This document shows, piece after piece, positions 1 through 17,593 of a stretch of 64,000 nucleotides of DNA. Position 1 is the first letter of the stretch. Every line of letters starts with the position of its first letter. A program made the position numbers and the translations under genes. Source of the stretch: Microbacterium forte (GTDB lineage Bacteria > Actinomycetota > Actinomycetes > Actinomycetales > Microbacteriaceae); NCBI RefSeq assembly GCF_031885415.1, contig NZ_CP116871.1, forward strand, positions 1,984,001 to 2,048,000, given 5' to 3'. Below the pieces are notes generated by a model. The model did not search any database. It saw nothing but the letters and a program-made list of their open reading frames with translations, and had not been told where the DNA came from.

Positions 1-56
1 CGGAGTAGCTCGACCCTTCGTCGTTTTCCTGCCGACTCGCGCAGGTACTCCGCCAT
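1..56 (-). CDS. possible 5' end of a divergent gene (partial)
   Basis: An ATG at base 56 on the minus strand opens a frame that stays open for 18 codons to the window edge, beginning M-A-E-Y-L-R-E-S-A-G-K. HxlR regulators are often transcribed away from their target gene, which is the only contextual support. Too little is visible to recognise a family, and the upstream ribosome-binding site is weak. Confidence 0.25.
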   Translation of the reverse strand, partial: MAEYLRESAGKRRRVELL

Positions 57-71
57 TCCGGACGTGGACTC

Positions 72-100
72 TTGACACCGAGAACTTTCTTCAAGAAAGT
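72..100. promoter_or_regulatory. -35-like box and palindromic operator upstream of hxlR-type gene
   Basis: Bases 72-77 read TTGACA. Bases 84-100 form a perfect inverted repeat ACTTTCTT-C-AAGAAAGT whose right arm ends 6 bases before the ATG at 107. The position between a -35-like box and the start codon suggests autoregulation by the HxlR protein, which binds as a dimer. No clear -10 box is seen. Confidence 0.6.
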
Positions 101-106
101 GACTGG

Positions 107-574
107 ATGCCGCTCCGCTCCGACTGGTCGACAGCCACGTGTCCGATCGCCCGCTCCGCCGATGTGCTCGCCGACCCGTGGGTGCTTCTGATCCTGCGCG
201 AGCTGTTCTCGGGTCGCACCCGCTTCGATGAGCTGCGCGACGCCACGGGAGCCGCCGACTCCGTGCTCGCCCGGCGCCTCGCCTTGATGACCGAGGCGGG
301 CCTCGTGCGGCGCGACGACGAACGGGGGTATCTCCTGACGGAGGTCGGCCGAGAGACCCTCCCGATCCTCCACGCCTACGCGCGATTCACGCGCGTCACC
401 GATCCCGACGGCCCCTGGGGGCTGACCGTCGGCTGCGGGCGCTGCGGCGGGCTCGCGGCATCCGCAGACTGGTGCACGACCTGCGCCGCCCCGCTCGACG
501 CAGACACCACCCGGTGGTCGCGTCGCAGCATGGGCGGCGAGCCGTTCGCGCTCGCATCAGGCACCGCCGCATGA
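107..574 (+). CDS. HxlR-family winged-helix regulator with C-terminal zinc-ribbon-like Cys pairs
   Basis: This 155-residue protein has the HxlR signature: a Cys at residue 12 (TCPIARS), then W-V-L-L-I-L-R-E-L and the wing region with R-F-x-E-L. HxlR proteins are small dimeric DNA-binding regulators, some sensing electrophiles through the N-terminal Cys. Unusually, the C-terminal third carries two CxxC pairs (C-G-R-C and C-T-T-C, 14 residues apart) that look like a small zinc ribbon. The stop codon overlaps the start of the following transporter (ATGA at 571-574), so the two are translationally coupled and the regulator probably controls that transporter. The inverted repeat at 84-100 is its likely operator. 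Confidence 0.85.
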   Translation: MPLRSDWSTATCPIARSADVLADPWVLLILRELFSGRTRFDELRDATGAADSVLARRLALMTEAGLVRRDDERGYLLTEVGRETLPILHAYARFTRVTDPDGPWGLTVGCGRCGGLAASADWCTTCAAPLDADTTRWSRRSMGGEPFALASGTAA

Positions 575-1893
575 CCGCCGAATCGGTCGAGGAGCCGACC
601 GACCTTCCGACACCCACGCCGCCCGCGATGCCGCAGCGCCGCATCCATCCCGCATGGATCGTCGCACTCGTCGCGCTGATCGCACTGATCGGAGCCGCCG
701 GGTTCCGTGCTGCACCAGGGGTGCTGATGCTGCCTCTGCAGGACGAGTTCGGCTGGACCACGGCCGAGCTCTCTCTCGCCGTCACGGTCAACCTGCTGCT
801 GTTCGGCCTCACAGCGCCGTTCGCCGCCGCCCTCATGCAGCGCTTCGGCATCCGCGCCGTCACCGTGACCGCTCTGTTCGTGATCGGAGCGGGTGCTGCG
901 CTGAGCGTCTTCGTCGCCACCCCGGCGCAGCTCATCCTGACGTGGGGCGTGCTCATCGGACTCGGCACCGGGTCGATGGCGCTGGTGTTCGCGGCCACGA
1001 TCACCGATACCTGGTTCGCGACCAGGCGCGGCCTGGTGTCGGGCGTGCTCACGGCCGGAAGCGCCACCGGGCAGCTGATCTTCCTGCCGGTGATCGCCGC
1101 GGCGGCCGAGGACATCGGCTGGCGAGGGGCATCGCTGATCATCGCCGGGGGTGCGCTCGCGGTCGTCCCCCTGGTCTGGATCTTCGTGCGCAACCGTCCG
1201 AGCGATCTCGGCGTCAACCGCTACGGCGACAGCGGACCCGTCACCGTGACCGCCCGACCGAAGGGCAGCGCGTGGGGAGCCGCTCGACTCGCGATCACCA
1301 CACTCCGCGACGCTGCGCGCACCAAGACGTTCTGGGCGCTCGCGATCGGATTCGCGATCTGCGGCGCCACGACCAACGGCCTGATCGGCACCCACTTCAT
1401 CCCCAGCGCGCACGACCACGGGATGCCGACGACGACCGCAGCCGGGCTGCTCGCCGTGGTCGGGATCTTCGACATCGCCGGCACGGTGTTCTCGGGCTGG
1501 CTGACCGACCGGGTGAACCCTCGCATTCTGTTGGCCGCGTACTACGCGCTGCGCGGCGTGAGCCTGCTGTTCCTGCCGAGCCTGCTGTCGGCCGACGTGC
1601 AGCCGAGCATCGTCGTGTTCATCGTGATCTACGGCCTCGACTGGGTGGCGACGGTTCCGCCGACCATCGCACTGTGCCGTGAGGTCTTCGGCGATCGGGG
1701 TCCCCTCGTGTTCGGCTGGGTGTTCGCCTCGCACCAGATCGGCGCCGGCATCGCCTCGTTCCTCGCGGGCATGGTGCGCGACCACACGGGCCAGTACACC
1801 GTCGCCTGGTTCGCCGCCGCCGGCCTCTGCGCCGTCGCCGCGCTGGTGAGCGCCACGATCCGCCGGCATCCGGCCGCGGTCACGTCGCCCTGA
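571..1893 (+). CDS. MFS transporter
   Basis: A 440-residue major facilitator with about 12 hydrophobic segments. The start is the ATG at 571, inside the stop codon of the HxlR gene; the longer frame to 472 lies inside that gene and is unlikely. After a polar 20-residue N-terminus the first membrane segment begins near residue 27. The F-R-A-A-P-G-V-L-M-L-P-L stretch and the D-E-F-G-W motif between helices 1 and 2 resemble the anion/monocarboxylate (OFA-like) MFS branch. The substrate is unknown. It is the terminal gene of the pair, followed by a strong hairpin at 1905-1940. Confidence 0.85.
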   Translation: MTAESVEEPTDLPTPTPPAMPQRRIHPAWIVALVALIALIGAAGFRAAPGVLMLPLQDEFGWTTAELSLAVTVNLLLFGLTAPFAAALMQRFGIRAVTVTALFVIGAGAALSVFVATPAQLILTWGVLIGLGTGSMALVFAATITDTWFATRRGLVSGVLTAGSATGQLIFLPVIAAAAEDIGWRGASLIIAGGALAVVPLVWIFVRNRPSDLGVNRYGDSGPVTVTARPKGSAWGAARLAITTLRDAARTKTFWALAIGFAICGATTNGLIGTHFIPSAHDHGMPTTTAAGLLAVVGIFDIAGTVFSGWLTDRVNPRILLAAYYALRGVSLLFLPSLLSADVQPSIVVFIVIYGLDWVATVPPTIALCREVFGDRGPLVFGWVFASHQIGAGIASFLAGMVRDHTGQYTVAWFAAAGLCAVAALVSATIRRHPAAVTSP

Positions 1894-1904
1894 TCGCCCG
1901 ACGA

Positions 1905-1940
1905 CGAAGGCCCCCACCCGGAATCGGGTGGGGGCCTTCG
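1905..1940. terminator. bidirectional terminator hairpin
   Basis: Perfect 16-bp inverted repeat (arms 1905-1920 and 1925-1940, CGAAGGCCCCCACCCG and its complement) with a GAAT loop. It sits between the convergent MFS (+) and ABC ATPase (-) genes, so it can terminate both. Confidence 0.85.
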
Positions 1941-1954
1941 ACACCGGAAGACGC

Positions 1955-2683
1955 TCAGAGGACCTTCGAGAGGAAGTCCTTCAGGCGCTCGTTCTTCGGC
2001 GCGCCGAACAGCTCGGCGGGCGGCGCCTCTTCGACGACGACTCCGCCGTCCATGAACACCGTGCGGCCCGAGACCTCGCGGGCGAAGCCCATCTCGTGCG
2101 TCACGAGCACCATCGTCATGCCGCCGGACGCGAGGTCACGGATCACCTGCAGCACCTCACCGACCATCTCGGGGTCGAGCGCGCTGGTGGCCTCATCGAA
2201 GAGCATGATCTCGGGGTCCATCGCGAGCGCGCGGGCGATCGCCACGCGCTGCTTCTGACCGCCCGAGAGCGATGCCGGCTTGGCATCCGCCTTCTCGGCC
2301 AGGCCCACGCGATCGAGCAGAGCGAGCGCCCGCTCCTTCGCCTCGGCCTTCGACAGCTTGCCGAGCTCGACCGGCGCGAGAGTGATGTTCTCGAGCACGG
2401 TCATGTGCGGGAACAGGTTGAAGTGCTGGAACACCATGCCGATGCGCTGGCGCACCTCGTCGAGCTTCACGCTCTTGTCGGTCAGGTCGACGCCGTCGAC
2501 GATGACATGACCCGACGTCGGCTCCTCGAGCTTGTTGAGGCAGCGCAGCAGGGTGGACTTTCCCGACCCCGACGGACCGATGACCGCGATGACCTCGCCG
2601 TCTTCGACCGTCAGGTCGATGCCCTTGAGCACGTGGTTGTCGCCGAACGACTTGTGCAGGTCTCTGACCTCGATCTTGCTCAT
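1955..2683 (-). CDS. polar amino acid ABC transporter, ATP-binding protein (GlnQ-like)
   Basis: The 242-residue ATPase starts [13 protein letters not shown]. It has Walker A (GPSGSGKST), the C-loop [15 protein letters not shown] and Walker B with EATSALD, where most GlnQ/HisP proteins have DEPTSALD. The [10 protein letters not shown] run after Walker A and the [11 protein letters not shown]-loop are typical of the GlnQ/HisP family (amino acid import, cytoplasmic face). Its ATG overlaps the stop of the fused binding protein-permease gene by 4 bases, so both subunits of the importer are made from one transcript. Confidence 0.92.
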
Positions 2684-4158
2684 GCGTTGAACTTCCTCTC
2701 CAGGCGGTTCGCGAGCAGCGTGAGAAGCGTGATCACGACGAAGTAGATGATGGCGACGATGGTCAGCACCTGGGCCGACAGGTACGTCGAGGCGATGATC
2801 TGGCGCGACACGAACGTGAGCTCGGCGAGCCCGATCACGCTGATCAGCGAGGTGTCCTTGAGGGTGATGATGCCCTGGTTCACGAACGACGGGATCATGA
2901 TGCGGAAGGCCTGCGGCAGCACGACCTTCCGCATGGTCTTCCAGTGGCCGAGGCCCAGGGAACGCGACGCCTCGGACTGACCGGGGTCGACGGCCTGGAT
3001 GCCGCCGCGGATGATCTCGGTCATGTACGCACCGGTGTTCAACGAGAGCGTGATGGCGCCCGCGACGAACGGGTTGAACGTGAGCCCGGGGAACAGCTGC
3101 GGGATGGCGAAGAACACGAAGAACGCCTGCACCAGGATCGGGGTGCCGCGGAACACGTAGACGTACGCGGTGGCCACCCAGCGGAACGGCGCGAAGGCCG
3201 ACACCCGGCCGAAGCCGAAGATGAGCCCGAGGATGAACGCCGCCACGATCGCGACCAGCGTCGCGAGGATCGTGAGCCACAGGCCCTCCATCAGAGCGGG
3301 CCAGTACTTCACCGCCACGGAGAAGATGTCGGTCGCCTGCGTGCTCTCCTCGCCGCCTGCGAGGTAGCTGTCGACGATCTCGTCGTACTCCCCCGAGGCC
3401 TTGAGGTTCTCGAGACCCGCGTTGAACATCTCCACGAGTTCGGGGTTCTGGCCCTTGTTGACCGCGAATCCGTATTCGCCGCCGAGCTCCGGCTCGCCGA
3501 TCAGGCGGAAGCCGGACCCCTGCTGGATGCCGTAGGCGAGCACCGGGAAGTCCTCGAAGTAGCCGACGGCCTGGCCGGCCTTGACGGCATCCACCATGTC
3601 GGTCGTGTCCTGGTACGGCGTGATGCGGAAGCCGAATTCGTCCTGGTTCTCCTCGGCGAACGTCTGCCCCTGGGTGCCGGTCTTGACCGCCACCGCTTCG
3701 CCGTCGAGGTCGTCGAGCGACTGGATGTCGCTGGACTCGAGCACTCCGAGCTGGATGCCGCTGGTGAAGTACGGCTCGCTGAAGTCGAACGTCTTCTCGC
3801 GCTCTTCCGTGATCGACATGCCCGCCATGACGGCGTCGACCTGGTTGGCCTGCAGAGCCTGCACCGCGGCGTCGAACCCGAGCTGGCGGATCTCGACCTC
3901 GAAGCCCTGGTCGTCTGCGATCGCGCGCAGCAGATCCATGTCGATGCCGACGAGCTCGCCCTCGGGAGAGGTGAACTCGAACGGCGCGAACGTCGTGTCG
4001 GTGCCGATGACATAGGTCTCGGAGTCGTCGGCCGCGGTGGCCGCGGACGCGCCGCCGAGCAGCGCACCGGCCGCGATGAACGCCGTGAGCGCCATCGCCC
4101 CGACGGTGCGTCCGAACGCGCGCAGGCGCGCGGAAGCAGGAGAGGGATGTGGGATCAC
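2680..4158 (-). CDS. fused amino acid-binding protein / ABC permease (GlnH-GlnP type)
   Basis: I take the GTG at 4158 as the start: a GAGGAG sits 8 bases upstream and it directly precedes a signal peptide (hydrophobic [14 protein letters not shown], then A-T-A-A-D-D). The 492-residue product has an extracytoplasmic solute-binding domain (about 45-265, beginning [14 protein letters not shown], typical of the SBP_bac_3 fold). A HisM/GlnP-type permease domain with the N-terminal W-L-T-I-L-A-T motif follows (about 275-490). One chain therefore carries both receptor and channel, a known arrangement in Gram-positive GlnP proteins. Likely substrates are glutamine, glutamate or another polar amino acid; which one is not visible. 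Confidence 0.9.
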
Positions 4159-4278
4159 GACGGGTGCTCCTCGGATCGGATGGGCGACAGGATGCTGCCA
4201 CCGGGATGGTCGTCGACCATCCACCCTAACCGGCGACGGCGTGTCGCCGTGATCCGAGGGCGGTCCGCGCGCTCGCCT

Positions 4279-4809
4279 CTAGAGGGTGATCCAGTATCGG
4301 CGGAGCATCGCGTGTCCCCGCGCGGACTGGTCGCTGACGTCCTGCAGCACGCCTCCGGCACCCTCGATCGTGCGATACGAGCCGACGTTGTCGTCGTCGC
4401 AGGTGACGAGCACGCGCTCGAGGCCGATCTCGCGAGCACGTTCGAGCCCGAGACGCAGCGCCGCAGAGGCGTAGCCCTGTCGGCGGCGAGAGGCGCGCAC
4501 CGAGTAGCCGATGTGGCCGCCCGCCTCACGGAGCCATTCGTTCAACTCGTGCCGGAAGGAGAGGAAACCGACGACCTCGCCGTCGTCGACGATCCAGTAC
4601 AGATCGTTGTGCACGGCGTCGTCGGGCAGGTCGGCCGTGGTGTCGGCGAGCAGCGTCGACTTCTCGATCAGGGCCTCGAGCGTCGCGAGATCCGGGGTGA
4701 CGGGTGCCTGCAGACCTGAACCGTCGACATGACCGTCGCCGAATTCGGCGACGGCAGCCGCCCAGGAGTCGAACAGGTCGGTGGTGGGCCTCGTGAGCTC
4801 GATCGTCAT
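4279..4809 (-). CDS. GNAT-family N-acetyltransferase
   Basis: 176 residues. The acetyl-CoA loop appears as I-G-Y-S-V-R-A-S-R-R-R-Q-G-Y-A-S (motif A, R/Q-x-x-G-x-G/A) near residues 100-115, followed by A-L-E-R-A-R-E-I-G-L and the N-x-x-S/x-Y-R-T-I-E pattern near the C-terminus. The N-terminal 70 residues are more divergent. It stands alone, 90 bases downstream (in the minus direction) of the DHA2 transporter gene. The substrate cannot be predicted. Confidence 0.85.
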   Translation of the reverse strand: MTIELTRPTTDLFDSWAAAVAEFGDGHVDGSGLQAPVTPDLATLEALIEKSTLLADTTADLPDDAVHNDLYWIVDDGEVVGFLSFRHELNEWLREAGGHIGYSVRASRRRQGYASAALRLGLERAREIGLERVLVTCDDDNVGSYRTIEGAGGVLQDVSDQSARGHAMLRRYWITL

Positions 4810-4898
4810 CGCCCGATGACATCACAGGGGGGTTCCCGGCCGCAAACCGGGCATTCCCCACGCGTGTGCGAAAGGCCCGGCTCGCAGGCAGGAGCGGG

Positions 4899-6476
4899 TC
4901 ACGCCGCAGGCGCGGGCGCCTCCGTGGGAGCCGACGCGGCAGCATCCGCCCTGTCGTAGCGTCCGAGGAACAGCGAGGCGACGAGGGCGACGACCATCAC
5001 GCACGCGGGAAGCAGGATCGCCTGCGACATGCCTGCGGCGAACCCCTCGGCGACCTCGGGCGGCAGCGAGCCGCCGCCGCTGGTGCCCGACGGGGCATCC
5101 GCGAGACCGGGCAGGTTCGCCTCGAGACGAGACTGCATGAACGTGGCGATGGATGCCGAGCCGATCACCGATCCGATGGTCCGGGTCGTGTTGTAGATGC
5201 CCGCGCCGGCGCCCGCCTGGCGCGGCGGCAGCTTGCGGGTCGCGGTGGTCGCGAGCGGCCCCCACATGCCCGCGTTGCCGATGCCCATGAGCGCCGACGG
5301 CAGCAGGAACATCCAGATCTCGGTGCCCATGTTGATCAGCGTCGAGTACCAGACGAGGGCGACGACGACGCAGAGGAGACCCGGGATCAGGATGATGCGC
5401 GGGTCGACGCGGTCGAGCAGCTTGCCCGCGAACGGAGCGAGCACGCCCGAGAGCACGGCCATCGGGATCAGCAGCAGAGCGGCCTCGGTCGGGGTGAGCC
5501 CGCGAGCGGTCTGCAGGAAGAACATCATCGGCAGCGACATGCTCGTCACCGTGAACCCGACCGCGGCTATGGCGACGTTCGCGCCCGAGAAGTTGCGGTC
5601 GCGGAAGAGGGCGAGCGGCACGAGGGCCTCACTGCGCGTGCGCGCCTGCTGCACGATGAACAGCCCGAGCACGATGAGGCCGGTGATGATCAGGCTCCAC
5701 ACCGAGATCGGGCCCCAGATCACACCCCAGTCGAACTTCTCGCCTTCCTGAAGACCGAAGACGATGAGGAACAGCGCGACCGCGCTCAGGATGACACCGA
5801 GGACGTCGAAGCGGTGCGGACTCGTCTGCAGCTTGGGCACGAGCCGCCAGGCGAGCACGAAGGCGACGATGCCGACGGGGATGTTCACGAAGAAGATCCA
5901 TTCCCAGCCGAAGCCGTCGACGAGCAGTCCGCCGACGAGGGGTCCGACGAGCGTGGCGACACCGGCGGTCGCACCCCACAGGCCCATGGCCGCACCGCGG
6001 CGCTCGGGCGGGAACGTGCGGGTGATCACTGCCATGGTCTGCGGCGTCATGAAGGCGGCGCCGAGCCCCTGCACGGCGCGCGCCGCGATGAGCATCTCGA
6101 GCGAGCCCGAGAGTCCGCACCAGAGCGATGCGAGCGTGAAGATCGCGAGGCCGATGAGGTAGATGTTCTTGGGACCGAAACGGTCGCCGAGGCGTCCGGT
6201 GATCAGCAGCGGCACGGCGTATGCGAGCAGGTAGGCGCTGGTGACCCACACCACGTTGTCGAGGTTGTTCGTGGTGGGGTCGAGGGCGGCCTTGATCGCC
6301 GGGTTCGCCACCGAGACGATCGTCGTGTCGACGAGGATCATGAAGAAGCCGATGACCAGCGCCCACAGGGCGGGCCACGGGCTGGCGGGACGGTGGCCCG
6401 CCGCGAAGGTGCCGGTCGAGGGACCGGATGACGAGGATGCCACGGGCGTGCGTCCCGTCGAGGGAGAGTCGGTCAT
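4899..6476 (-). CDS. DHA2-family MFS multidrug efflux transporter (EmrB/QacA type)
   Basis: A 525-residue transporter with about 14 membrane segments, the length and topology of DHA2 drug:proton antiporters. After a polar N-terminus comes W-A-L-V-I-G-F-F-M-I-L-V-D-T-T-I-V (helix 1 with the D-x-T-I-V motif), then L-I-T-G-R-L-G-D-R-F-G-P-K (motif A) and the antiporter motif C-like G-P-L-V-G-G-L-L-V-D-G. Its ATG overlaps the stop of the upstream padR-type gene by 4 bases (6473-6476), so a PadR repressor and its pump form a coupled operon. Confidence 0.92.
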   Translation of the reverse strand: MTDSPSTGRTPVASSSSGPSTGTFAAGHRPASPWPALWALVIGFFMILVDTTIVSVANPAIKAALDPTTNNLDNVVWVTSAYLLAYAVPLLITGRLGDRFGPKNIYLIGLAIFTLASLWCGLSGSLEMLIAARAVQGLGAAFMTPQTMAVITRTFPPERRGAAMGLWGATAGVATLVGPLVGGLLVDGFGWEWIFFVNIPVGIVAFVLAWRLVPKLQTSPHRFDVLGVILSAVALFLIVFGLQEGEKFDWGVIWGPISVWSLIITGLIVLGLFIVQQARTRSEALVPLALFRDRNFSGANVAIAAVGFTVTSMSLPMMFFLQTARGLTPTEAALLLIPMAVLSGVLAPFAGKLLDRVDPRIILIPGLLCVVVALVWYSTLINMGTEIWMFLLPSALMGIGNAGMWGPLATTATRKLPPRQAGAGAGIYNTTRTIGSVIGSASIATFMQSRLEANLPGLADAPSGTSGGGSLPPEVAEGFAAGMSQAILLPACVMVVALVASLFLGRYDRADAAASAPTEAPAPAA

Positions 6477-10570: not shown

Positions 10571-10621
10571 GGCGATCGCGATCAGGCGGCGATCGCGCTC
10601 AGTCGGCGATCGCGCTCAGTC
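10571..10621. repeat. 17-bp tandem repeat, three units
   Basis: Units at 10571-10587, 10588-10604 and 10605-10621. The last two are identical (GGCGATCGCGCTCAGTC) and the first differs at two or three positions. The third unit runs into the last codons and stop of the biotin carboxylase gene on the minus strand, so copy-number change would act at that gene's 3' end. Confidence 0.8.
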
Positions 10622-12328
10622 GATGACGGCGATGACTCCGTCCGGCGCGATCGCCGCTGAGAGCTCGGCGCGGTGCGACAGGATGCCGGCGCGATGAGCG
10701 GCGACCGTGGTCTCCATCTTCATCGCGTCGAGCACGGCGACCGGATCGCCCTCGACGACGTGCGCGCCGTCATCAGCGAGCCAGCGCACGAGTGTGCCGG
10801 GCGCCGGCGAGCGCAGTTCGGTCGGGTCGGATGCGGAGGGCGCGGGCCCGGAAACCGCCAGCCCGCCGAGCCCCGCGAGCAGGGCGATCGGCAGCCCGAG
10901 CACGACCCGACGTCCGTCGATCTCGACGGGGAAGCGCTGGAGTGCGGCATCCGGGGCGGGAGCCGGGCGCAGCTGAGGTTCGAGCCTCGGCAGCAATGTG
11001 CTCTCGATCCACTGCGTGTGCACCGCGAAGGTGTCGGTGGCGAACGCCGCGTCGTCGAGCGCGAGCAGATCGAACGGGATGACGGTGGCCGGCCCCTCGA
11101 CCACGAGCTCGCGCAGCGCCCGTCGGGCCCGCACGAGTGCCGCATCTCGGCTGTCGGCGTGCACGATGAGCTTCGCGATCATCGAGTCGAACGCGGGCTG
11201 AACGGCATCGCCCGCCTCGATCCCGCTGTCCCAGCGCACACCGGGTCCGCCGGGGATCCGCAGCGACTCCACACGACCGGGACTCGGAAGGAACCCGCGA
11301 CCAGGGTCTTCCGCGTTGATGCGGAACTCGAAGGCGTGCCCTGTCGGCGTCGGGGTCTCGGTGAACGAGATGCCCTCTCCGAACGCGATGCGGAACTGCT
11401 CTCGCACGAGATCCGTGCCGGTGACCTCTTCGGTGACCGGGTGCTCCACCTGCAGACGGGTGTTCACCTCGAGGAAGGAGATCGTGCCGTCTGCGGCGAG
11501 CAGGAACTCGACGGTTCCCGCACCGCGGTACTGCACCTCGGCGCAGATCGCCCTGGCCGCGTCGTGGAATCGCGTGCGCTGGTCACTCGACAGCCCCGGC
11601 GCCGGGGCCTCCTCGATGAGCTTCTGATTGCGCCGCTGCATCGAGCAGTCCCGGTCGCCGACGACCACGATGCCGCCGAGTCCGTCGCCGAGCACCTGCA
11701 CCTCGATGTGACGCGGGCTCTCGAGGAACCGCTCGACGAAGCACTCGCCGCGGCCGAAGGCGGCGATGGCCTCCCGGGTCGCGGCGTCGAAGGCGTCGGC
11801 GACATCCGACAGCTCCCGCACCACCTTCAGGCCTCGCCCGCCACCGCCGAATGCCGCCTTGATGGCGATCGGAAGCCCGTGCTGCTCGGCGAAGGACACG
11901 GCCTCTGCAGGGCCGGCGAGGGGCTGGTCGGTGCCGGCCGCCAACGGTGCTCCGACGCGCTGCGCGATCCGGCGCGCGGTCATCTTGTCACCGAGCGCGT
12001 CGATGCTGTCGGGCGATGGTCCGATCCAGACGAGCCCTGCGCCTTCCACGGCTCGCGCGAACTCCGCGCTCTCCGAGAGGAATCCGTAGCCGGGGTGCAC
12101 GGCATGCGCCCCGCTCTTCCGCGCCGCAGCGAGTAGCGCCTCGATGGAGAGGTACGTGGCGGCAGCGGTGTCTCCCCCCAGACCCAGCGCCTCGTCGGCG
12201 AGTCGCACGTGCAGGGCGTCGGCGTCCTGATCGGCGTAGACCGCGATCGACGTGTATCCGGCTTCGGCGCAGGCGCGGATGACGCGCACGGCGATCTCTC
12301 CGCGATTCGCGATCAGCACCTTGGTCAT
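10616..12328 (-). CDS. biotin carboxylase / biotin carrier fusion (acyl-CoA or urea-carboxylase-type alpha subunit)
   Basis: 570 residues. An N-terminal biotin carboxylase module (about 1-445) opens K-V-L-I-A-N-R-G-E-I-A-V-R and has the ATP-grasp glycine loop F-G-G-G-G-R-G-L-K and the H-I-E-V-Q-V-L-G-D motif. A linker and a C-terminal biotinyl domain follow, with the biotinylated lysine at K537 (A-M-K-M). The module carboxylates its own biotin with ATP and bicarbonate. There is no acyl-CoA carboxyltransferase beta subunit nearby. Instead its ATG overlaps by 4 bases the fused PxpB-PxpC gene, whose domains resemble the carboxyltransferase part of urea carboxylase. This suggests a multi-subunit biotin enzyme acting on a lactam; that is inference. 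Confidence 0.9.
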   Translation of the reverse strand: MTKVLIANRGEIAVRVIRACAEAGYTSIAVYADQDADALHVRLADEALGLGGDTAAATYLSIEALLAAARKSGAHAVHPGYGFLSESAEFARAVEGAGLVWIGPSPDSIDALGDKMTARRIAQRVGAPLAAGTDQPLAGPAEAVSFAEQHGLPIAIKAAFGGGGRGLKVVRELSDVADAFDAATREAIAAFGRGECFVERFLESPRHIEVQVLGDGLGGIVVVGDRDCSMQRRNQKLIEEAPAPGLSSDQRTRFHDAARAICAEVQYRGAGTVEFLLAADGTISFLEVNTRLQVEHPVTEEVTGTDLVREQFRIAFGEGISFTETPTPTGHAFEFRINAEDPGRGFLPSPGRVESLRIPGGPGVRWDSGIEAGDAVQPAFDSMIAKLIVHADSRDAALVRARRALRELVVEGPATVIPFDLLALDDAAFATDTFAVHTQWIESTLLPRLEPQLRPAPAPDAALQRFPVEIDGRRVVLGLPIALLAGLGGLAVSGPAPSASDPTELRSPAPGTLVRWLADDGAHVVEGDPVAVLDAMKMETTVAAHRAGILSHRAELSAAIAPDGVIAVID

Positions 12329-13914
12329 GAGGTCTCCTTGACGATGAAACGAACTCGCGCACCGGGCGGCAGCTGCCCGGCGAGGTCGAGGCTGCGATCG
12401 GTGAGGGCGCCGATGATCGGATACCCGCCGGTGAGCGGATGGTCGGGCAGGAACAGCACGGGCTGACCGTCCGGAGGCACCTGGATCGCCCCGGTGACGG
12501 CGCCCTCGCTGGGCAGCTCACCGCCGACCGACCGTTCCAGGGGCACGGCTCCCTCGAGCCTGATGCCGACCCGATCCGAGCGCGGGGTCGCAGTCCACTC
12601 CTGGGCGGTGAGGGTGGCGAGCGCTGCCGCCGTGAACCAGTCGTCGCGAGGACCGAGGGTGATCTCGAGCTCGACCAGCTCGCCGGGTGCGGGGAGGGCC
12701 CGCGGCATCGCATCGGGCTCGACGGGATGCGGTGCGCGATCGCCGACACGGAGCACGTCGCCTGCGGCGAGCGCCGCCGGGCCGAGACCGGCGAGGGTGT
12801 CGCTCGCGCGGCTGTCCAGCGCCGGTTCCGCCGCCACACCGCCGCGGACGGCGATGACGTAGCGCAGCCCGCTCGCGGGGTGCCCGAGAGTGAGCTCGTC
12901 ACCGTCGACGGTGGCGAAGGGCACTCCATGGGCGATCTGACGCGCCACGCCACCGGCATCGATCAGCTCGAGGGATCCGACGGCACCCGCGACGGCGGCG
13001 ACCCCGGCACCCCGGAAGCGCAGCACCGCGCCCCCGACGCTCTCGAGCACGGCGGCACCGGTCTCGTTGCCCACGGCACGGTTCGCGTCTCGCATCGCAC
13101 GACGATCGGCGACGCCTGACGCCGAGACGCCGAGTGCCGCGAAACCCGGGCGACCGGCATCCTGCACCAGCAGCTGCAGTGACGGCCGCACGATCTCGAC
13201 TGCGGCCGGCATGGGAGAACCCGGGTCCGGCGCACCGGCGACGGCGGGTCGATCGGCGACACCTCGCTCGTCGGCCCGTTCGTCTGCGTCGCCCGACGTC
13301 ACGACCTGCTCGCGCACGCGTTCGAACCGCACGGTCGTGCCCGGCGACAGCAGCGCAGGCGGGTCGCGGTCGATGTCCCACATCAGGGCATCCGTGCGAC
13401 CGATGAGCTGCCACCCACCGGGACTCTCACGCGGGTACACCCCGGTGAACTGCCCGGCGAGCGCCACGGACCCTGCGGGCACACGCGTGCGGGGCGACGA
13501 GCGGCGCGGCACGTCGAACAGGGGATCGCTGCTCACCACATAGCCGAAACCGGGAGCGAAGCCCGAGAAGGCCACCTTCCAATCGGCACCGAGATGACGA
13601 TTCACGAGCTCTGCCGCCGACACGCCCAGCAGGGCTGCGGCCTCGTGGAGGTCTTCGCCGTCGTACCGCACCGGCACCGTGACCTCGCCGGTGACCGGCA
13701 GGTGAGCGGTGTCGATGTCCGTCGCCGCGAGCGCCTCTGCGAGATCGCCGGCCGAGACGACGAGCGGATCGAAGCGCACGAGCACGGTGCGAGCGCCCGG
13801 GATGCGCTCGACCACACCGCGCACTCCGTCCCAGGCGAGGTTCAGGCGCATCGCCTCGTCGAGGTCGGCCGCCTCGACGAGAAGCGCGTGATCGGATGCG
13901 GTGAGGATGCGCAT
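12325..13914 (-). CDS. fused PxpB-PxpC (5-oxoprolinase subunits; KipI-KipA / allophanate hydrolase subunit 1+2 family)
   Basis: 529 residues. The N-terminal half (1 to about 210) is the PxpB/KipI domain with the F-A-P-G-F-G-Y-V motif and P-R-R-S-S-P-R-T-R-V-P-A-G-S-V-A. The C-terminal half (about 245-525) is PxpC/KipA with L-L-V-Q-D-A-G-R-P-G-F-A-A-L-G-V and ending in the G-G-Y-P-I-I-G-A-L-T and P-G-A-R-V-R-F motifs. In Escherichia coli PxpB and PxpC are separate and, with PxpA, hydrolyse 5-oxoproline to glutamate with ATP. Both domains share their fold with the carboxyltransferase region of urea carboxylase. Start ATG at 13914 shares one base with the upstream stop. Confidence 0.9.
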   Translation of the reverse strand: MRILTASDHALLVEAADLDEAMRLNLAWDGVRGVVERIPGARTVLVRFDPLVVSAGDLAEALAATDIDTAHLPVTGEVTVPVRYDGEDLHEAAALLGVSAAELVNRHLGADWKVAFSGFAPGFGYVVSSDPLFDVPRRSSPRTRVPAGSVALAGQFTGVYPRESPGGWQLIGRTDALMWDIDRDPPALLSPGTTVRFERVREQVVTSGDADERADERGVADRPAVAGAPDPGSPMPAAVEIVRPSLQLLVQDAGRPGFAALGVSASGVADRRAMRDANRAVGNETGAAVLESVGGAVLRFRGAGVAAVAGAVGSLELIDAGGVARQIAHGVPFATVDGDELTLGHPASGLRYVIAVRGGVAAEPALDSRASDTLAGLGPAALAAGDVLRVGDRAPHPVEPDAMPRALPAPGELVELEITLGPRDDWFTAAALATLTAQEWTATPRSDRVGIRLEGAVPLERSVGGELPSEGAVTGAIQVPPDGQPVLFLPDHPLTGGYPIIGALTDRSLDLAGQLPPGARVRFIVKETS

Positions 13915-14714
13915 CAGACGAGGTACTCGGCATCCGGCACGTCGGTGATGAACATGTACCCCGGTGCGTGGGTGATGGCGAACGGCGGCTTCGAGGCCAT
14001 GATCGCGGCCTGAGGGGTGACGCCGCAGGCCCAGAACACCGGCACTTCGCCGTCGCGCACCTCGGGGGCATCCCCGAAGTCGGGGCGGGCGAGGTCGAGG
14101 ACTCCGAGGGATACGGGGTCGCCGACGTGCACCGGAGCACCGTGCACAGCGGGGGTTCGGCCGGAGATCTGCACGGCATCCGCCACTCGGTCCGCCGCGA
14201 TCGGCCTCATCGACACGACCATCTCACCGCTCAGGCGACCCGCCGGTGCGCAGGGCACCGAGGTGCGGTACATCGGCACATTGCGACCGAGCTCCTGATG
14301 ACGGATCGGGATGCCGGCCTCGACGAGTCCGGACTCGAACGTGAAGCTGCATCCGATGAGGAACGAGACGAGGTCCGGATGCTCCGCCCAGGCCGCCGTC
14401 GCGTCGGTGATCTCTTCGGCCAGTTCGCCGTCGCGCCAGATGCGATACCGGCCGATGTCCGTGCGGATGTCGCTGCCCGGCGCGAGCCGTGACTCCACCT
14501 CTCCCTGCTCGATGACCTCGAGCACCGGGCACGGCTTCGGGTTGCGCTGTGCGAAGAGCAGGGTCTCGAAGGCCCAGTCCGCGGGCACGGAGATGAGATT
14601 GGCCTGTGTCAGCCCGACCGCGACCCCGCTGGTCGGCTCGGCGTGCCCTGCCCGGATGGCGGCACGGGCCGCGCGCGCGTCGGCGAGCTGGGCTGCGGTG
14701 GCGAGGACGGTCAT
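13914..14714 (-). CDS. DUF1445 family protein (YcsI / D-glutamate cyclase-like hydro-lyase)
   Basis: 266 residues typical of DUF1445: R-A-A-I-R-A-G-H at the start, then [11 protein letters not shown], the [11 protein letters not shown] segment, and the [13 protein letters not shown] and [10 protein letters not shown] motifs. The family is often annotated as putative hydro-lyase. The mammalian homologue DGLUCY is a D-glutamate cyclase giving 5-oxo-D-proline, which would fit the 5-oxoprolinase genes on either side. The cyclase role here is inferred from homology and context. In Bacillus subtilis the equivalent ycsI also lies beside ycsF and kipIA. Confidence 0.85.
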
Positions 14715-14715
14715 G

Positions 14716-15480
14716 TCAGACGCCCGCGAACGGTGCGATCGTGATGCCCGCTTGCTGCAGCATCCGCTTCGTCTCTGCCGCCATGGCCACCGAACCAGGG
14801 CTGTCTCCGTGCACGCAGATCGACTGCGCGCTGACGGGCACGTCGGTGCCGTCGATCGCGCGGATCACTCCTTCGCCGGCCAGGCGCACCATGCGCTCGG
14901 CGACCGCCGCGGGATCGTGCAGCACAGACCCGGGCTCGGTGCGCGAGACGAGCTGCCCGTCGGGCTGATACGCCCGATCGGCGAAGGCCTCTGCCGCAGT
15001 CTGCAGCCCCGCGCGCTCGGCGACGTCGAGCACGACACCTCCGGCCAGGCCCAGCAGCACGAGGCTCGGATCGATCGCGCGGATGGCCGCCACCACGTCC
15101 TGCGACTGCCGCTCATCGCGGGCGATCGTGTTGTAGAGCGCTCCGTGCGGCTTGACGTAGGCGACCTTTCCGCCCACCGCGGCGGCGAGACCGATCAGCG
15201 CCCCGAGCTGGTACTCGACGTGGGCCTGCAGCGTGGCCGAATCGATGTCGACCTTCGTACGGCCGAAGTTCTCGTAGTCGCGGTAGCCGGGGTGCGCGCC
15301 GATCACGACACCTCCGGCCACCGCGCTGGCGAGGGTCGCGCGGATGCCCTCGGGGCTGCCCGCGTGGAAGCCGCACGCCACGTTCGCACTCGTCACGAGG
15401 TCGAGCATGCTCTGGTCGTCGCTGACGATCCGGTCGGCGACGTTCTCGCCGAGGTCCGAGTTCAGGTCGATCGATGCCAT
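14716..15480 (-). CDS. pxpA: 5-oxoprolinase subunit A (LamB/YcsF family)
   Basis: 254 residues. The start [10 protein letters not shown] with [14 protein letters not shown] carries the metal-binding/catalytic residues of the LamB/YcsF family. [20 protein letters not shown] and the C-V-H-G-D-S-P-G motif near the end are also diagnostic. PxpA acts with PxpB-PxpC in ATP-dependent ring opening of 5-oxoproline. One base separates its stop from the DUF1445 start, so the cluster is a single operon. Confidence 0.93.
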
Positions 15481-15484
15481 GGGG

Positions 15485-16762
15485 TCACGCTCCGGTTCCG
15501 AGGAAGGCGAAGATCGGGCCGACTGAGACGATGCCCATGTACCAGGTGAGCAGCGTCACGACCGTGCCCGCGATGAGCAGCCACAGCGGGTACTTCTTCG
15601 AGCCGAGCAGGTCACGACGGAACCAGCCGATGTACATGAAGACCGTGAGGCCGATGGGGAGGATGAGGCCGTTGAAGCCGCCGACGAACACGAGGATCGC
15701 AGCAGGCGCCGTGCCGATCGACAGGTAGACGATCAGCGACACGACGATGAAGGCGACGGTGGCCAGCTGCAGCGGCCAGCCGCCCCTGAGCTTCTTCGTG
15801 AAGGTCGAGAGGAAGGTCGCCGACGTGTACGCGGCGCCGATCACCGAGCTGATGGCCGCGGCCCAGAAGATCGCACCGAAGATGCGCAGCCCCGCGTCGC
15901 CGAGCACGGCGCCGAAGGCCTGTCCTGCGGGGTTCGCAGCCTGGCTCGACAGGTCGAGCGAGACGCCGGAGGCGACCACACCGAGGATCGCGAGGAACAG
16001 CACGTAGCGCATGATGCCGGTGACGAGGATGCCGTTCGCCGCGGCGCGCATCACCGGGCCGGCCTGCTCCGGACCGGTGTGTCCGGAGTCGAGGTAGCGG
16101 TGGGCGCCCGAGTAGGTGATGTATCCGCCGACCGTTCCGCCGACGATCGTGGTGATCGTGGCGAAGTTCAGTTCGTCGGGCACGAACGTCTGTCGCAGGG
16201 CCTCGCCGATCGGCGGCTGGGCGATCACCGCGACGATCACGGTCATCACGATCATGCCCACGCCGAGCACGATCAGCACGACGTCCATCACCGGGCCCGC
16301 CTTCTTGACGAGGAAGATGATGATCGCGAGGGCCGCGGTGAGTGCGCCGCCGAGCTTGGGATCGATGCCGAGCAGGGCGTTGAGGCCCAGTCCGCCACCC
16401 GCGATGTTGCCGATGTTGAAGGCCAGGCCGCCGATCACGACGAGCACGGCGATCAGGTGTCCGGAGAACGGGATGGCGCTGTTGGCGAGCTCTCCGGCGC
16501 GCTTGCCCGATGAGGTGATCATGCGCCAGACGTTCAGCTGCACTGCGATGTCGATGAGGATCGAGACGAGGATCGCGAACGCGAAGGCGGCCCCCATCGT
16601 CGCGGTGAACGTGGCCGTCTGGGTGATGAATCCTGGGCCGATGGCGCTGGTGGCCATCAGGAAGATCGCGCCGATCACGGCGCTGCGGCCTGCCCGCCTC
16701 TTGGCTCCGGCGAGGCGGACTTCGTCTTCTGCGGACAGCGGGGCTGCGGTGTTCTCTGACAT
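15485..16762 (-). CDS. NRAMP-family transporter (YcsG-like)
   Basis: 425 residues from the ATG at 16762; a longer frame to 16828 starts inside the promoter region. About 11 hydrophobic segments. The [12 protein letters not shown] stretch in helix 1 sits where metal-transporting NRAMPs have D-P-G-N, so the metal-binding Asp and Asn are absent. This is typical of YcsG-type members found with pxpABC genes, which are probably organic-substrate rather than metal carriers. The operon context points to import of 5-oxoproline or a related lactam. It is the first gene of the operon. Confidence 0.82.
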
Positions 16763-16830
16763 TGCGGGGGATTTCCCATCGTCGTTGGTGGGTGTCGAGT
16801 GACACCCAGTGTAGAACGGATCGAGCAATA

Positions 16831-16841
16831 TTGTTCAACAA
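16831..16841. promoter_or_regulatory. probable GntR operator in the divergent lactam-cluster promoter
   Basis: TTGTT-C-AACAA is a perfect 5+1+5 inverted repeat in an A/T-rich patch unlike its GC-rich surroundings. It lies between the NRAMP start (16762, minus) and the GntR start (16937, plus). FadR/FCD-type GntR proteins bind short inverted repeats containing GT-N(x)-AC, so this is the likely operator for the divergent operon. Confidence 0.65.
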
Positions 16842-16924
16842 CTTTGTTTCGGCTGTGCTACGACCGAGTTGCGTTCGCGTGATGCCGCGGTCGCCTCCTC
16901 GAACGATCCGCCGCGCCTGCCGCC

Positions 16925-16939
16925 TACGATGAAGGCATG
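16925..16939 (+). promoter_or_regulatory. leaderless-type promoter of the gntR-type gene
   Basis: TACGAT (16925-16930) ends 6 bases before the ATG at 16937 with no ribosome-binding site, the pattern of a leaderless actinobacterial transcript. Confidence 0.55.
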
Positions 16940-17593
16940 AACCAGCAGGGCATGCTCGCCGATGCGCTCCGTCAGCAGATCATCGACGGCGCCTTCGCCC
17001 CCGGTTCACGGCTGTCGGAATCGGCCCTCGCCGAGCACTTCGGCGTCGCGCGCAACACGCTGCGAGAGGCGTTCCGCGCGCTCTCCGAGCAGGGTCTTCT
17101 CGAGCACGTGCCGCACCGGGGTGTCTCCGTCGCGTCGCCCTCGATAGCCGACGTCATCGACATCTACCGAGCACGCCGCGTCATCGAGTGCACGGCGCTC
17201 CTGCACTCCGAGCCCGAGCACCCCTCGGTGCAGCGGATGCAGCAGGCGGTGCTCGCCGCCGAGAAGGCCGCCCGGGATGCCGTCCACGACGACGCGGGCG
17301 CCTGGCGCGAGGTGGGCAGCGCCAACATGGCATTCCACGTCGCCCTGGTCGATCTCGCCGACAGCCCCCGCCTGGCCCGCACCTATCGCGACCTGGCGGC
17401 CGAGCTGCGGCTGGCGTTCCTGAAGATCGACGATCCGCGATCGCTCCACGAGCCGTTCGTGCGCAAGAACCGCGCGGTGCTCGACACCTTCCTCACGCAG
17501 GGCGCGCAGGAAGGCGCGGCCGAGCTCGAGCGCTACCTCGTGCAGTCGGAACGCGTCGTGCTCGGTGCGTTCGCCCGGATGCAGCTGGGCTGA
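16937..17593 (+). CDS. GntR-family (FCD/FadR-type) transcriptional regulator
   Basis: 218 residues. N-terminal winged helix: I-I-D-G-A-F-A-P-G-S-R-L-S-E-S-A-L-A-E-H-F-G-V and R-N-T-L-R-E-A-F-R-A-L. It is followed by an all-helical FCD ligand domain (about 75-215) with the metal/effector residues of the family in the E-x-x-N-M-A-F-H-V-A-L region. It is transcribed away from the pxp/biotin operon and is the obvious candidate regulator, with a carboxylate such as 5-oxoproline or glutamate as possible effector (inference). Confidence 0.9.
   Translation: MNQQGMLADALRQQIIDGAFAPGSRLSESALAEHFGVARNTLREAFRALSEQGLLEHVPHRGVSVASPSIADVIDIYRARRVIECTALLHSEPEHPSVQRMQQAVLAAEKAARDAVHDDAGAWREVGSANMAFHVALVDLADSPRLARTYRDLAAELRLAFLKIDDPRSLHEPFVRKNRAVLDTFLTQGAQEGAAELERYLVQSERVVLGAFARMQLG

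Follow-up and report, generated by a model that had tools for sequence, protein, structure and literature searches.

A biotin carboxylase gene in a putative 5-oxoproline operon of Microbacterium forte

5-Oxoproline, the ring form of glutamate, arises in all cells. A 64,000-nucleotide stretch of the Microbacterium forte genome (contig NZ_CP116871.1, positions 1,984,001 to 2,048,000; referred to below as the window, with positions counted from its first letter) contains an operon in which the genes of a 5-oxoprolinase, PxpA and a fused PxpB-PxpC (PxpBC), stand beside a gene for a biotin carboxylase-biotin carrier protein (BC-BCCP). This arrangement raises the question of what a biotin protein does among enzymes of 5-oxoproline breakdown. 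We put the probability at roughly 50% that the locus is a 5-oxoproline-inducible uptake and breakdown operon whose 5-oxoprolinase has its own biotin subunit. The linkage of BC-BCCP to PxpBC is not due to chance, and the substrate of the operon is with high likelihood 5-oxoproline.

Operon content and predicted control by 5-oxoproline

Five near-contiguous genes occupy the minus strand from 16828 to 10616, in the order carrier, PxpA, DUF1445, PxpBC and BC-BCCP, and a regulator gene diverges from them. The features are listed here, with families assigned from matches above the Pfam cut-offs.

16937..17593, plus strand: divergent GntR/FCD regulator, PxpR-like (Pfam GntR 63 bits, FCD 43 bits), oriented to pxpT as in Corynebacterium glutamicum (PMC13274462)
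16830..16842, no strand assigned: predicted PxpR operator ATTGTTCAACAAC, one mismatch to the published C. glutamicum core ATTGTTCAACAAT
15485..16762, minus strand: NRAMP-family carrier PxpT (PF01566, 75 bits)
14716..15480, minus strand: PxpA (LamB/YcsF), 254 aa (PF03746, 302 bits; NF003814, 327 bits against a cut-off of 226)
13914..14714, minus strand: DUF1445 protein, a D-glutamate-cyclase homologue, 266 aa (PF07286, D-Glu_cyclase, 226 bits; NF003969, 398 bits against a cut-off of 324)
12325..13914, minus strand: fused PxpB-PxpC (CT_C_D then CT_A_B), 529 aa (PF02682 and PF02626, above the Pfam cut-off)
13504..13506, minus strand: codon of Arg137 in PxpBC, at the place of urea carboxylase Lys1605 in alignments
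10616..12328, minus strand: BC-BCCP (AccA3-like), 570 aa (Pfam Biotin_carb_N, CPSase_L_D2, Biotin_carb_C and Biotin_lipoyl)
10718..10720, minus strand: codon of the biotin-attachment residue Lys537 (DAMKM) in BC-BCCP

The PxpABC 5-oxoprolinase gene set is complete in the window, with PF03746, PF02682 and PF02626 each above its cut-off. The PxpBC and BC-BCCP genes overlap by 4 bases and those of DUF1445 and PxpBC by 1 base, and a 1-base gap separates PxpA from DUF1445. These spacings, the positions and families of the genes, Lys537 within AMKM and the NRAMP-like carrier without D-P-G-N had all been read in an initial annotation of this DNA, and all of them hold. The fused PxpBC scores below the NCBIfam equivalog cut-offs (TIGR00370, 118 bits against 145.55; NF045499, 146 bits against 500). 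For the carrier, the ATG at 16762 is a likelier start than the TTG at 16828, where the open reading frame begins. DPGN and MPH are the metal-site motifs of NRAMP transporters; both are absent from all 53 PxpT-type sequences. Among the relatives of this carrier, C. glutamicum PxpT has been reported to carry 5-oxoproline, and Bacillus subtilis YcsG and Acinetobacter baumannii MumT to import manganese.

Evidence on the substrate lies between the regulator and carrier genes, where a palindrome, ATTGTT(G/C)AACAAT, equals the core sequence of the operator bound by C. glutamicum PxpR, agattgttcaacaatct. In C. glutamicum, PxpR is a 5-oxoproline sensor that binds the compound with a KD (dissociation constant) of 726 nM, and mutation or deletion of its operator raised reporter expression 6.5-fold (PMC13274462). 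The operator occurs at no more than one mismatch in 48 of 53 pxpR-pxpT gaps (52 loci plus the window), 40 of them exact and 8, the window included, with one mismatch; the 5 others have two. Shuffled gap sequences reach this level in 0.08% of 5,300 cases, 100 shuffles of the window gave no site, and the whole 3.75-Mb genome holds two sites, one of which is that of the window. The search pattern was written after the palindrome had been seen in the loci; the published C. glutamicum site is independent of them. Four loci that have BC-BCCP and lack PxpT (L041, L044, L066 and L129) also carry the operator, and it is absent from eight Microbacterium loci without BC-BCCP. To judge from its sequence, the window operon thus looks to be under 5-oxoproline-responsive control, and because this operator stands in the operon's promoter, the biotin gene is predicted to be a member of the 5-oxoproline regulon.

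Conservation and repeated recruitment of the biotin gene

We scanned species genomes with the window PxpBC and kept the best 80 loci by similarity, of which 67 with complete flanks were tabulated and 13 left out. The closest named relatives are Microbacterium, at 91% identity in PxpBC. BC-BCCP is present in 55 of the 67 loci, and among these 55 all six genes occur in 39 and DUF1445 alone is missing in 11. The carrier accompanies BC-BCCP in 50 of 55 loci and the regulator in 53 of 55, and neither is found in the 12 loci without it. DUF1445 is distributed similarly (41/55 with BC-BCCP versus 0/12 without). Hosts of BC-BCCP loci include Microbacterium, Agrococcus, Kocuria, Nocardioides, Leucobacter, Agrobacterium, Rhizobium, Shinella, Allorhizobium and Paracidovorax. 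Within the genus, PxpBC is encoded by 132 of 149 genomes and BC-BCCP adjoins it in at least 23 of the 132 (21 close copies plus genomes G297 and G329, from a BC-BCCP search at E <= 1e-190; in G249 the genes lie on different contigs).

Eight Microbacterium loci (L011, L014, L018, L021, L029, L030, L062 and L073) hold pxpA and pxpBC without BC-BCCP, and a search with all six window proteins found no trace there of the other four operon genes. The uracil/xanthine permease and purC genes of the window flank seven of the eight, six of which also share LacI and beta-glucosidase genes opposite; because of these common flanks, we place the seven at the chromosomal site of the window. The remaining locus, L062, lies elsewhere in the chromosome, and L029 is cut by a contig end, which leaves its upstream genes unjudged. 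On a tree of PxpBC, the presence of BC-BCCP changes five times, four of them forced by starred branches (a quick tree with long-branch warnings, with L043 and L071 uncounted and a parsimony count blind to gain versus loss). Because of these eight loci and five changes, the pair PxpA-PxpBC evidently does not need an adjacent biotin gene in order to be retained. The idea that a biotin gene is obligatory beside PxpA-PxpBC is rejected by the same loci and by Escherichia coli.

Biotin carboxylases of different families adjoin PxpB/PxpC in Actinomycetota, Pseudomonadota and Bacillota. In the actinomycetotal family f25, which comprises five stretches with a single-domain biotin carboxylase (BC) near pxpABC, locus L098 has an AccC-like enzyme within seven genes in a row, PxpB-PxpC-BCCP-BC-DUF1445-PxpA-NRAMP. 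The same seven genes in the same order, again with an AccC-like BC, occur on a Levilactobacillus brevis plasmid (NZ_CP031177.1, positions 1-6275; locus L192). This plasmid measures 30.5 kb, and its split operon adjoins a transposase gene. Plasmids of Paracoccus, Bradyrhizobium and Rhizobium leguminosarum hold genes for BCCP, an AccC-type BC, PxpB, PxpC and PxpA together. On a second BC tree, the association with PxpB/PxpC changes five times, counting as linked the AccC-type BC of L165, which PxpB/PxpC adjoin (six if it is taken as unlinked). The count falls to four without three rows of family f17, which were dropped from the stricter tally because PxpB of that family keeps the KY..RT motif of urea carboxylase.

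Two broader samples place these cases in context. A plasmid survey covered 14 of 40 listed matches, picked for different genera before their neighbours were known and including E. coli; a biotin carboxylase gene stands beside PxpBC in 8 of the 14 annotated records and is lacking in 6. In a phylum sample, CT_A_B was found in 48 of 197 genomes, on 54 stretches, some of them truncated at the end of a contig. Of the 54, 14 have a biotin carboxylase encoded by a gene of its own (8 of family f17, 5 of f25, plus L129), and 5 are fused urea carboxylases. Families f17 and f25 may belong to Coriobacteriia, which is a guess. In public records, the split-operon biotin carboxylases carry an acetyl-CoA carboxylase annotation. 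A Klebsiella pneumoniae plasmid (CP143971.1; L188) carries the entire six-gene operon, and PxpBC matches occur in 98 Klebsiella plasmid records.

In Eleftheria, a pyroglutamyl-peptidase I gene lies directly 3' of BC-BCCP. A pyroglutamyl-peptidase was rejected as a general neighbour, being seen among the loci examined in L185 and L119 only, the latter without a BC gene. In these two pxp operons it occurs with DUF969-DUF979 genes (L185, 2373-4077; L119, 9364-11156), which replace the NRAMP-like carrier in L185 and are possibly a second kind of 5-oxoproline permease.

The partner of the biotin protein and its possible chemistry

By its sequence, BC-BCCP is a paralogue of AccA3 (the alpha subunit of actinobacterial acyl-CoA carboxylases) and retains the catalytic residues. 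It is 57% identical to the AccA3-like protein of its own genome and 56-60% identical to those of the genus, and its best Protein Data Bank (PDB) match is mycobacterial AccA3. All 59 pxp-linked copies that were examined retain Lys115, Lys157, Lys236, Lys537, His207, Glu274, Glu287, Asn289, Arg291 and Arg336; we take the catalytic roles of the nine BC residues to be those of E. coli AccC. The biotin lysine is also present in 8 of 8 AccA3 sequences. The residue before AMKM is Glu in most of the AccA3 compared, and actinobacterial pxp copies mostly have Asp there. In a 72-domain BC tree (a quick tree, with some forks open), 11 AccA3 rows form one clade on a starred branch (97), and the pxp-linked copies of AccA3-like type fall outside it: the clade of 15 that holds the window protein, a Pseudomonadota clade of 6, L129 and L066. 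The Pseudomonadota copies group with actinobacterial AccA3-type copies and away from the AccC of their own genomes.

An inventory of the genome (3.75 Mb, one contig) bears on the partner of this protein. It contains one CT_A_B gene, that of PxpBC, four full-length biotin carboxylase domains and two PF01039 acyl-CoA carboxyltransferase genes. The initial annotation had noted no beta carboxyltransferase near the biotin module, and the genome-wide search for PF01039 agrees: both genes lie more than 1.4 Mb from the operon. One of them is 69 bases from a biotin carboxylase 49% identical to BC-BCCP, and 7 kb separate the second from the AccA3-like gene (57% identical). The fourth biotin carboxylase lies in a 1,206-codon frame that is probably pyruvate carboxylase. 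The one carboxyltransferase next to BC-BCCP is PxpBC, and no further carboxyltransferase gene lacking a partner was seen in the genome. A relevant parallel is PDB entry 9YX5, which, by its title and chain list, is a Mycolicibacterium smegmatis long-chain acyl-CoA carboxylase complex containing AccA3 with MSMEG_0435-MSMEG_0436 bound; these two proteins are 43-45% identical to the window PxpBC. PxpBC is thus the likely partner of BC-BCCP.

In the mechanism that we propose, 5-oxoproline would release PxpR from its operator and would be imported by PxpT. BC-BCCP would form carboxybiotin from ATP and bicarbonate, and PxpB-PxpC, the counterpart of the carboxyltransferase of urea carboxylase, would transfer the carboxyl group to the lactam nitrogen. 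PxpA would hydrolyse the activated ring and the resulting carbamate would decay to L-glutamate and CO2; bicarbonate would be catalytic and the net cost one ATP. DUF1445 might connect D-glutamate and 5-oxo-D-proline to the pathway, which is a guess from its family name. Where an operon has no biotin gene, the housekeeping AccA3 or AccB/AccC may serve PxpBC instead. Lactam N-carboxylation is the simplest chemistry that would use both BC-BCCP and PxpBC, and we regard its odds as about even.

The active site of PxpBC bears on this chemistry. Columns conserved in at least 90% of 60 sequences number 22 in PxpB and 40 in PxpC, and at least 6 of 7 urea-carboxylase-type sequences (two of which, L092 and L107, have no BC in the same frame) share the residue in 13 of the 22 and 34 of the 40, or 47 of 62 in all. 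Lys1605 is the likely general base of Kluyveromyces lactis urea carboxylase (PMC5770610), and all 7 urea-carboxylase-type sequences have Lys at this place. Among 68 PxpB examined, 60 have Arg there, E. coli PxpB and others without a biotin neighbour included, and the 8 with Lys all belong to family f17. The resemblance of PxpB/PxpC to the carboxyltransferase of urea carboxylase that the initial annotation had pointed out stands for the fold and for 47 of 62 columns, and fails at the general base. We looked for special residues in PxpBC beside a biotin gene and rejected the idea, as no position separates the two groups (that with a biotin neighbour included family f17). The site is thus much alike whether or not PxpBC has a biotin partner, and either all of these proteins use carboxybiotin or the task of the site needs none.

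Family f17 of Actinomycetota (L094, 5923-9901; L090, L095, L097, L100, L102, L111 and L112) has a PxpB with the KY..RT motif and the general-base Lys, as well as a divergent biotin carboxylase; in L094 the two are separated by a gene for a BioY biotin transporter. To judge from these residues it is possibly a split urea-carboxylase-like enzyme for another substrate. Its candidacy as a 5-oxoprolinase was set aside on account of the urea-carboxylase motif.

Several observations weigh against a 5-oxoprolinase with its own biotin subunit. Eight Microbacterium loci have pxpA and pxpBC alone, BC-BCCP presence changes five times on the PxpBC tree, and in the plasmid survey 5 of the 6 loci without a BC gene (E. 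coli included) keep PxpA with PxpB/PxpC; in the sixth, from Azospirillum, PxpA too is missing from the stretch. With its pxpTABC operon, C. glutamicum is able to grow on 5-oxoproline, and the mechanism currently assumed is phosphorylation of 5-oxoproline by PxpB and PxpC (PMC13274462); ATP hydrolysis has been attributed to PxpBC preparations on their own (PMC8453981, which cites other work). In PxpBC, urea carboxylase Lys1605 aligns with Arg137, and only Leu58 and Gly502 differ, weakly, between proteins with and without a biotin neighbour (28/30 versus 15/30, and 29/30 versus 17/30). No operator was found in two loci that have BC-BCCP, L036 and L077, or in 13 loci belonging to families f25 and f17, which rules it out as a mark of every BC-bearing operon, and it is present in L119, which has no BC gene. 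Finally, what is drawn here from 9YX5 comes from title, chain names and alignment. The initial annotation had proposed a biotin-dependent lactam enzyme. Membership of the biotin gene in the operon (by order, operator and recruitment) and the likely partnership with PxpBC (from 9YX5, by title, and the genome inventory) speak for that proposal; against a strict form of it speak PxpA with PxpB/PxpC lacking a biotin gene in the eight Microbacterium loci and in E. coli, the growth of C. glutamicum with pxpTABC and Arg137.

We judge it unlikely, though deserving of serious consideration, that the operon serves two substrates, with PxpABC opening 5-oxoproline by direct ATP-dependent phosphorylation and BC-BCCP carboxylating a second substrate (a lactam, urea or a urea-like compound) with the same PxpBC. 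The occurrence of PxpABC genes without a biotin gene in several bacteria fits this well, as does the nearly equal conservation of PxpBC with and without that gene, and A. baumannii mumC is required for growth on urea (PMC5050338). However, the operator, the co-retained 5-oxoproline carrier and sensor and the pyroglutamyl-peptidase neighbour indicate a single substrate, Arg replaces the urea carboxylase Lys1605 in these PxpB, and PxpBC is the sole CT_A_B gene found in the genome. The residue at this place also weakens plain urea carboxylase as the identity of the window enzyme.

A further alternative is that BC-BCCP serves as a spare alpha subunit of acyl-CoA carboxylase, paired in trans with a housekeeping AccD, and that its place in the operon is incidental or regulatory. 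Identities of 56-60% to the AccA3-like proteins of the genus and the acetyl-CoA carboxylase labels of split-operon biotin carboxylases favour this, but it is made improbable by the position of BC-BCCP outside the AccA3 clade, by the fact that this place was filled several times over from different families of biotin carboxylase, by the lack of an AccD gene within 1.4 Mb and by Pseudomonadota copies that are of actinobacterial AccA3 type rather than their own AccC.

A manganese and urea operon of the kind described for A. baumannii mum, with a manganese-importing carrier, BC-BCCP as urea carboxylase and PxpBC as allophanate hydrolase, is quite improbable here. The published order mumT-mumL-mumU-mumH-mumC appears to equal that of the window, mumC deletion stops growth on urea and mumT deletion lowers cell manganese (PMC5050338), and YcsG is a reported manganese importer (PMC10448178). 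Yet BC-BCCP alone has no carboxyltransferase domain, PxpBC is of the CT_A_B/CT_C_D type, unlike the serine amidase type of allophanate hydrolase (PMC5770610), the carriers lack NRAMP metal motifs, the operon has the regulator and operator known from the 5-oxoproline system, and C. glutamicum needs pxpT for growth on 5-oxoproline (PMC13274462). Very improbable is an accessory role in which BC-BCCP, itself dispensable, would boost flux through bicarbonate or carboxyphosphate regenerated close to PxpBC, with no covalent carboxylated lactam; this role would suit the five changes on the tree and the company of regulator (53/55) and carrier (50/55) in the 67-locus table, but would not need the biotin lysine kept in 59/59 copies.

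Comparison with known systems

Among the closest known systems to the proposed 5-oxoproline operon is pxpR-pxpTABC of C. glutamicum, which shares its divergent GntR sensor, NRAMP-family carrier, PxpA, PxpB, PxpC and operator core. It differs in that PxpB and PxpC are separate genes and that the operon, as described, has neither BC-BCCP nor DUF1445. C. glutamicum depends on the carrier gene pxpT to grow on 5-oxoproline (PMC13274462).

A gene set that appears to have this order is already known from Acinetobacter. A. baumannii mumTLUHC comprises genes for a carrier (T), for L and U, for H, which is homologous to allophanate hydrolase, and for C, a biotin carboxylase; its regulator, MumR, is of the LysR type, and it has been read as a system for manganese uptake and urea carboxylation (PMC5050338). 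By gene names its order is apparently that of the window, if L is LamB/PxpA and U is UPF0317/DUF1445, as we read them. In the same account mumC is needed for urea as a nitrogen source and mumH is not, and either deletion renders cells more sensitive to calprotectin, so that these phenotypes speak both against and for a shared function. What is new here is the 5-oxoproline reading, the operator and the repeated recruitment. In Lactiplantibacillus pentosus, an extra acetyl-CoA carboxylase copy (BCCP and BC) and pxpB/pxpC have been described as specific to the species (PMC12427679); they may form one operon. If our reading is correct, this extra carboxylase and the Acinetobacter urea carboxylase may be further cases of the enzyme proposed for the window.

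A two-component 5-oxoprolinase of Pseudomonas putida invites a comparison of sizes. Its component A reportedly assembles dimers of 64 and 51 kDa into a hexamer and has an ATPase activity that depends on 5-oxoproline, and component B is given as 82 kDa (PMC8453981). Computed masses for five operons (BC-BCCP 60-62 kDa, fused PxpBC 55-56 kDa, three PxpA 78-81 kDa) are near these values, a size match to a secondary source, and those of E. coli PxpB and PxpC (24 and 34 kDa) are not. A tentative extension, which we advance with reserve, is that PxpABC, which is widespread in prokaryotes, is in general a biotin-dependent N-carboxylating lactamase like urea amidolyase, supplied with carboxybiotin by a dedicated subunit or by AccA3 or AccB/AccC in trans; the P. 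putida enzyme would have been this complex, and many "spare" acetyl-CoA carboxylases would be 5-oxoproline enzymes. Among the matches listed in the literature searched, we found no statement on biotin dependence of PxpABC. Were it true, biotin dependence would account for the fold that PxpB-PxpC share with urea carboxylase and for the mycobacterial complex of AccA3 with PxpBC, would link the disposal of 5-oxoproline to the pool of fatty-acid carboxylases, and would call for corrected annotation of biotin genes labelled acetyl-CoA carboxylase in public records.

AccA3 likewise carries BC and BCCP on a single chain, is 57% identical to BC-BCCP in this genome and has the same active-site residues. 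It differs in its partner, an AccD beta subunit, in its separate clade and, for most of the AccA3 compared, in having Glu before AMKM, where actinobacterial pxp copies mostly have Asp. PDB 9YX5, for which no paper was found in the literature searched, resembles the proposed pairing in that PxpB-PxpC homologues are bound to the AccA3 complex, as known here from title, chain names and alignment. Unlike the window, a Mycolicibacterium locus (L068) has PxpB and PxpC without BC-BCCP, which would fit the borrowing of AccA3.

Urea carboxylase/urea amidolyase, as known from K. lactis (PMC5770610), has the same BC, CT_A_B, CT_C_D and BCCP domains, a common fold and 47 of 62 conserved columns. It is a single chain in the order BC-CT-BCCP, whereas the window splits these domains over two proteins, which score 502 and 144 bits against the TIGR02712 urea-carboxylase cut-off of 1303.85, and its general base Lys1605 has Arg137 as the counterpart in the window. 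The product of urea carboxylase passes to a serine-type allophanate hydrolase (PMC5770610); the candidate hydrolase in the window is PxpA.

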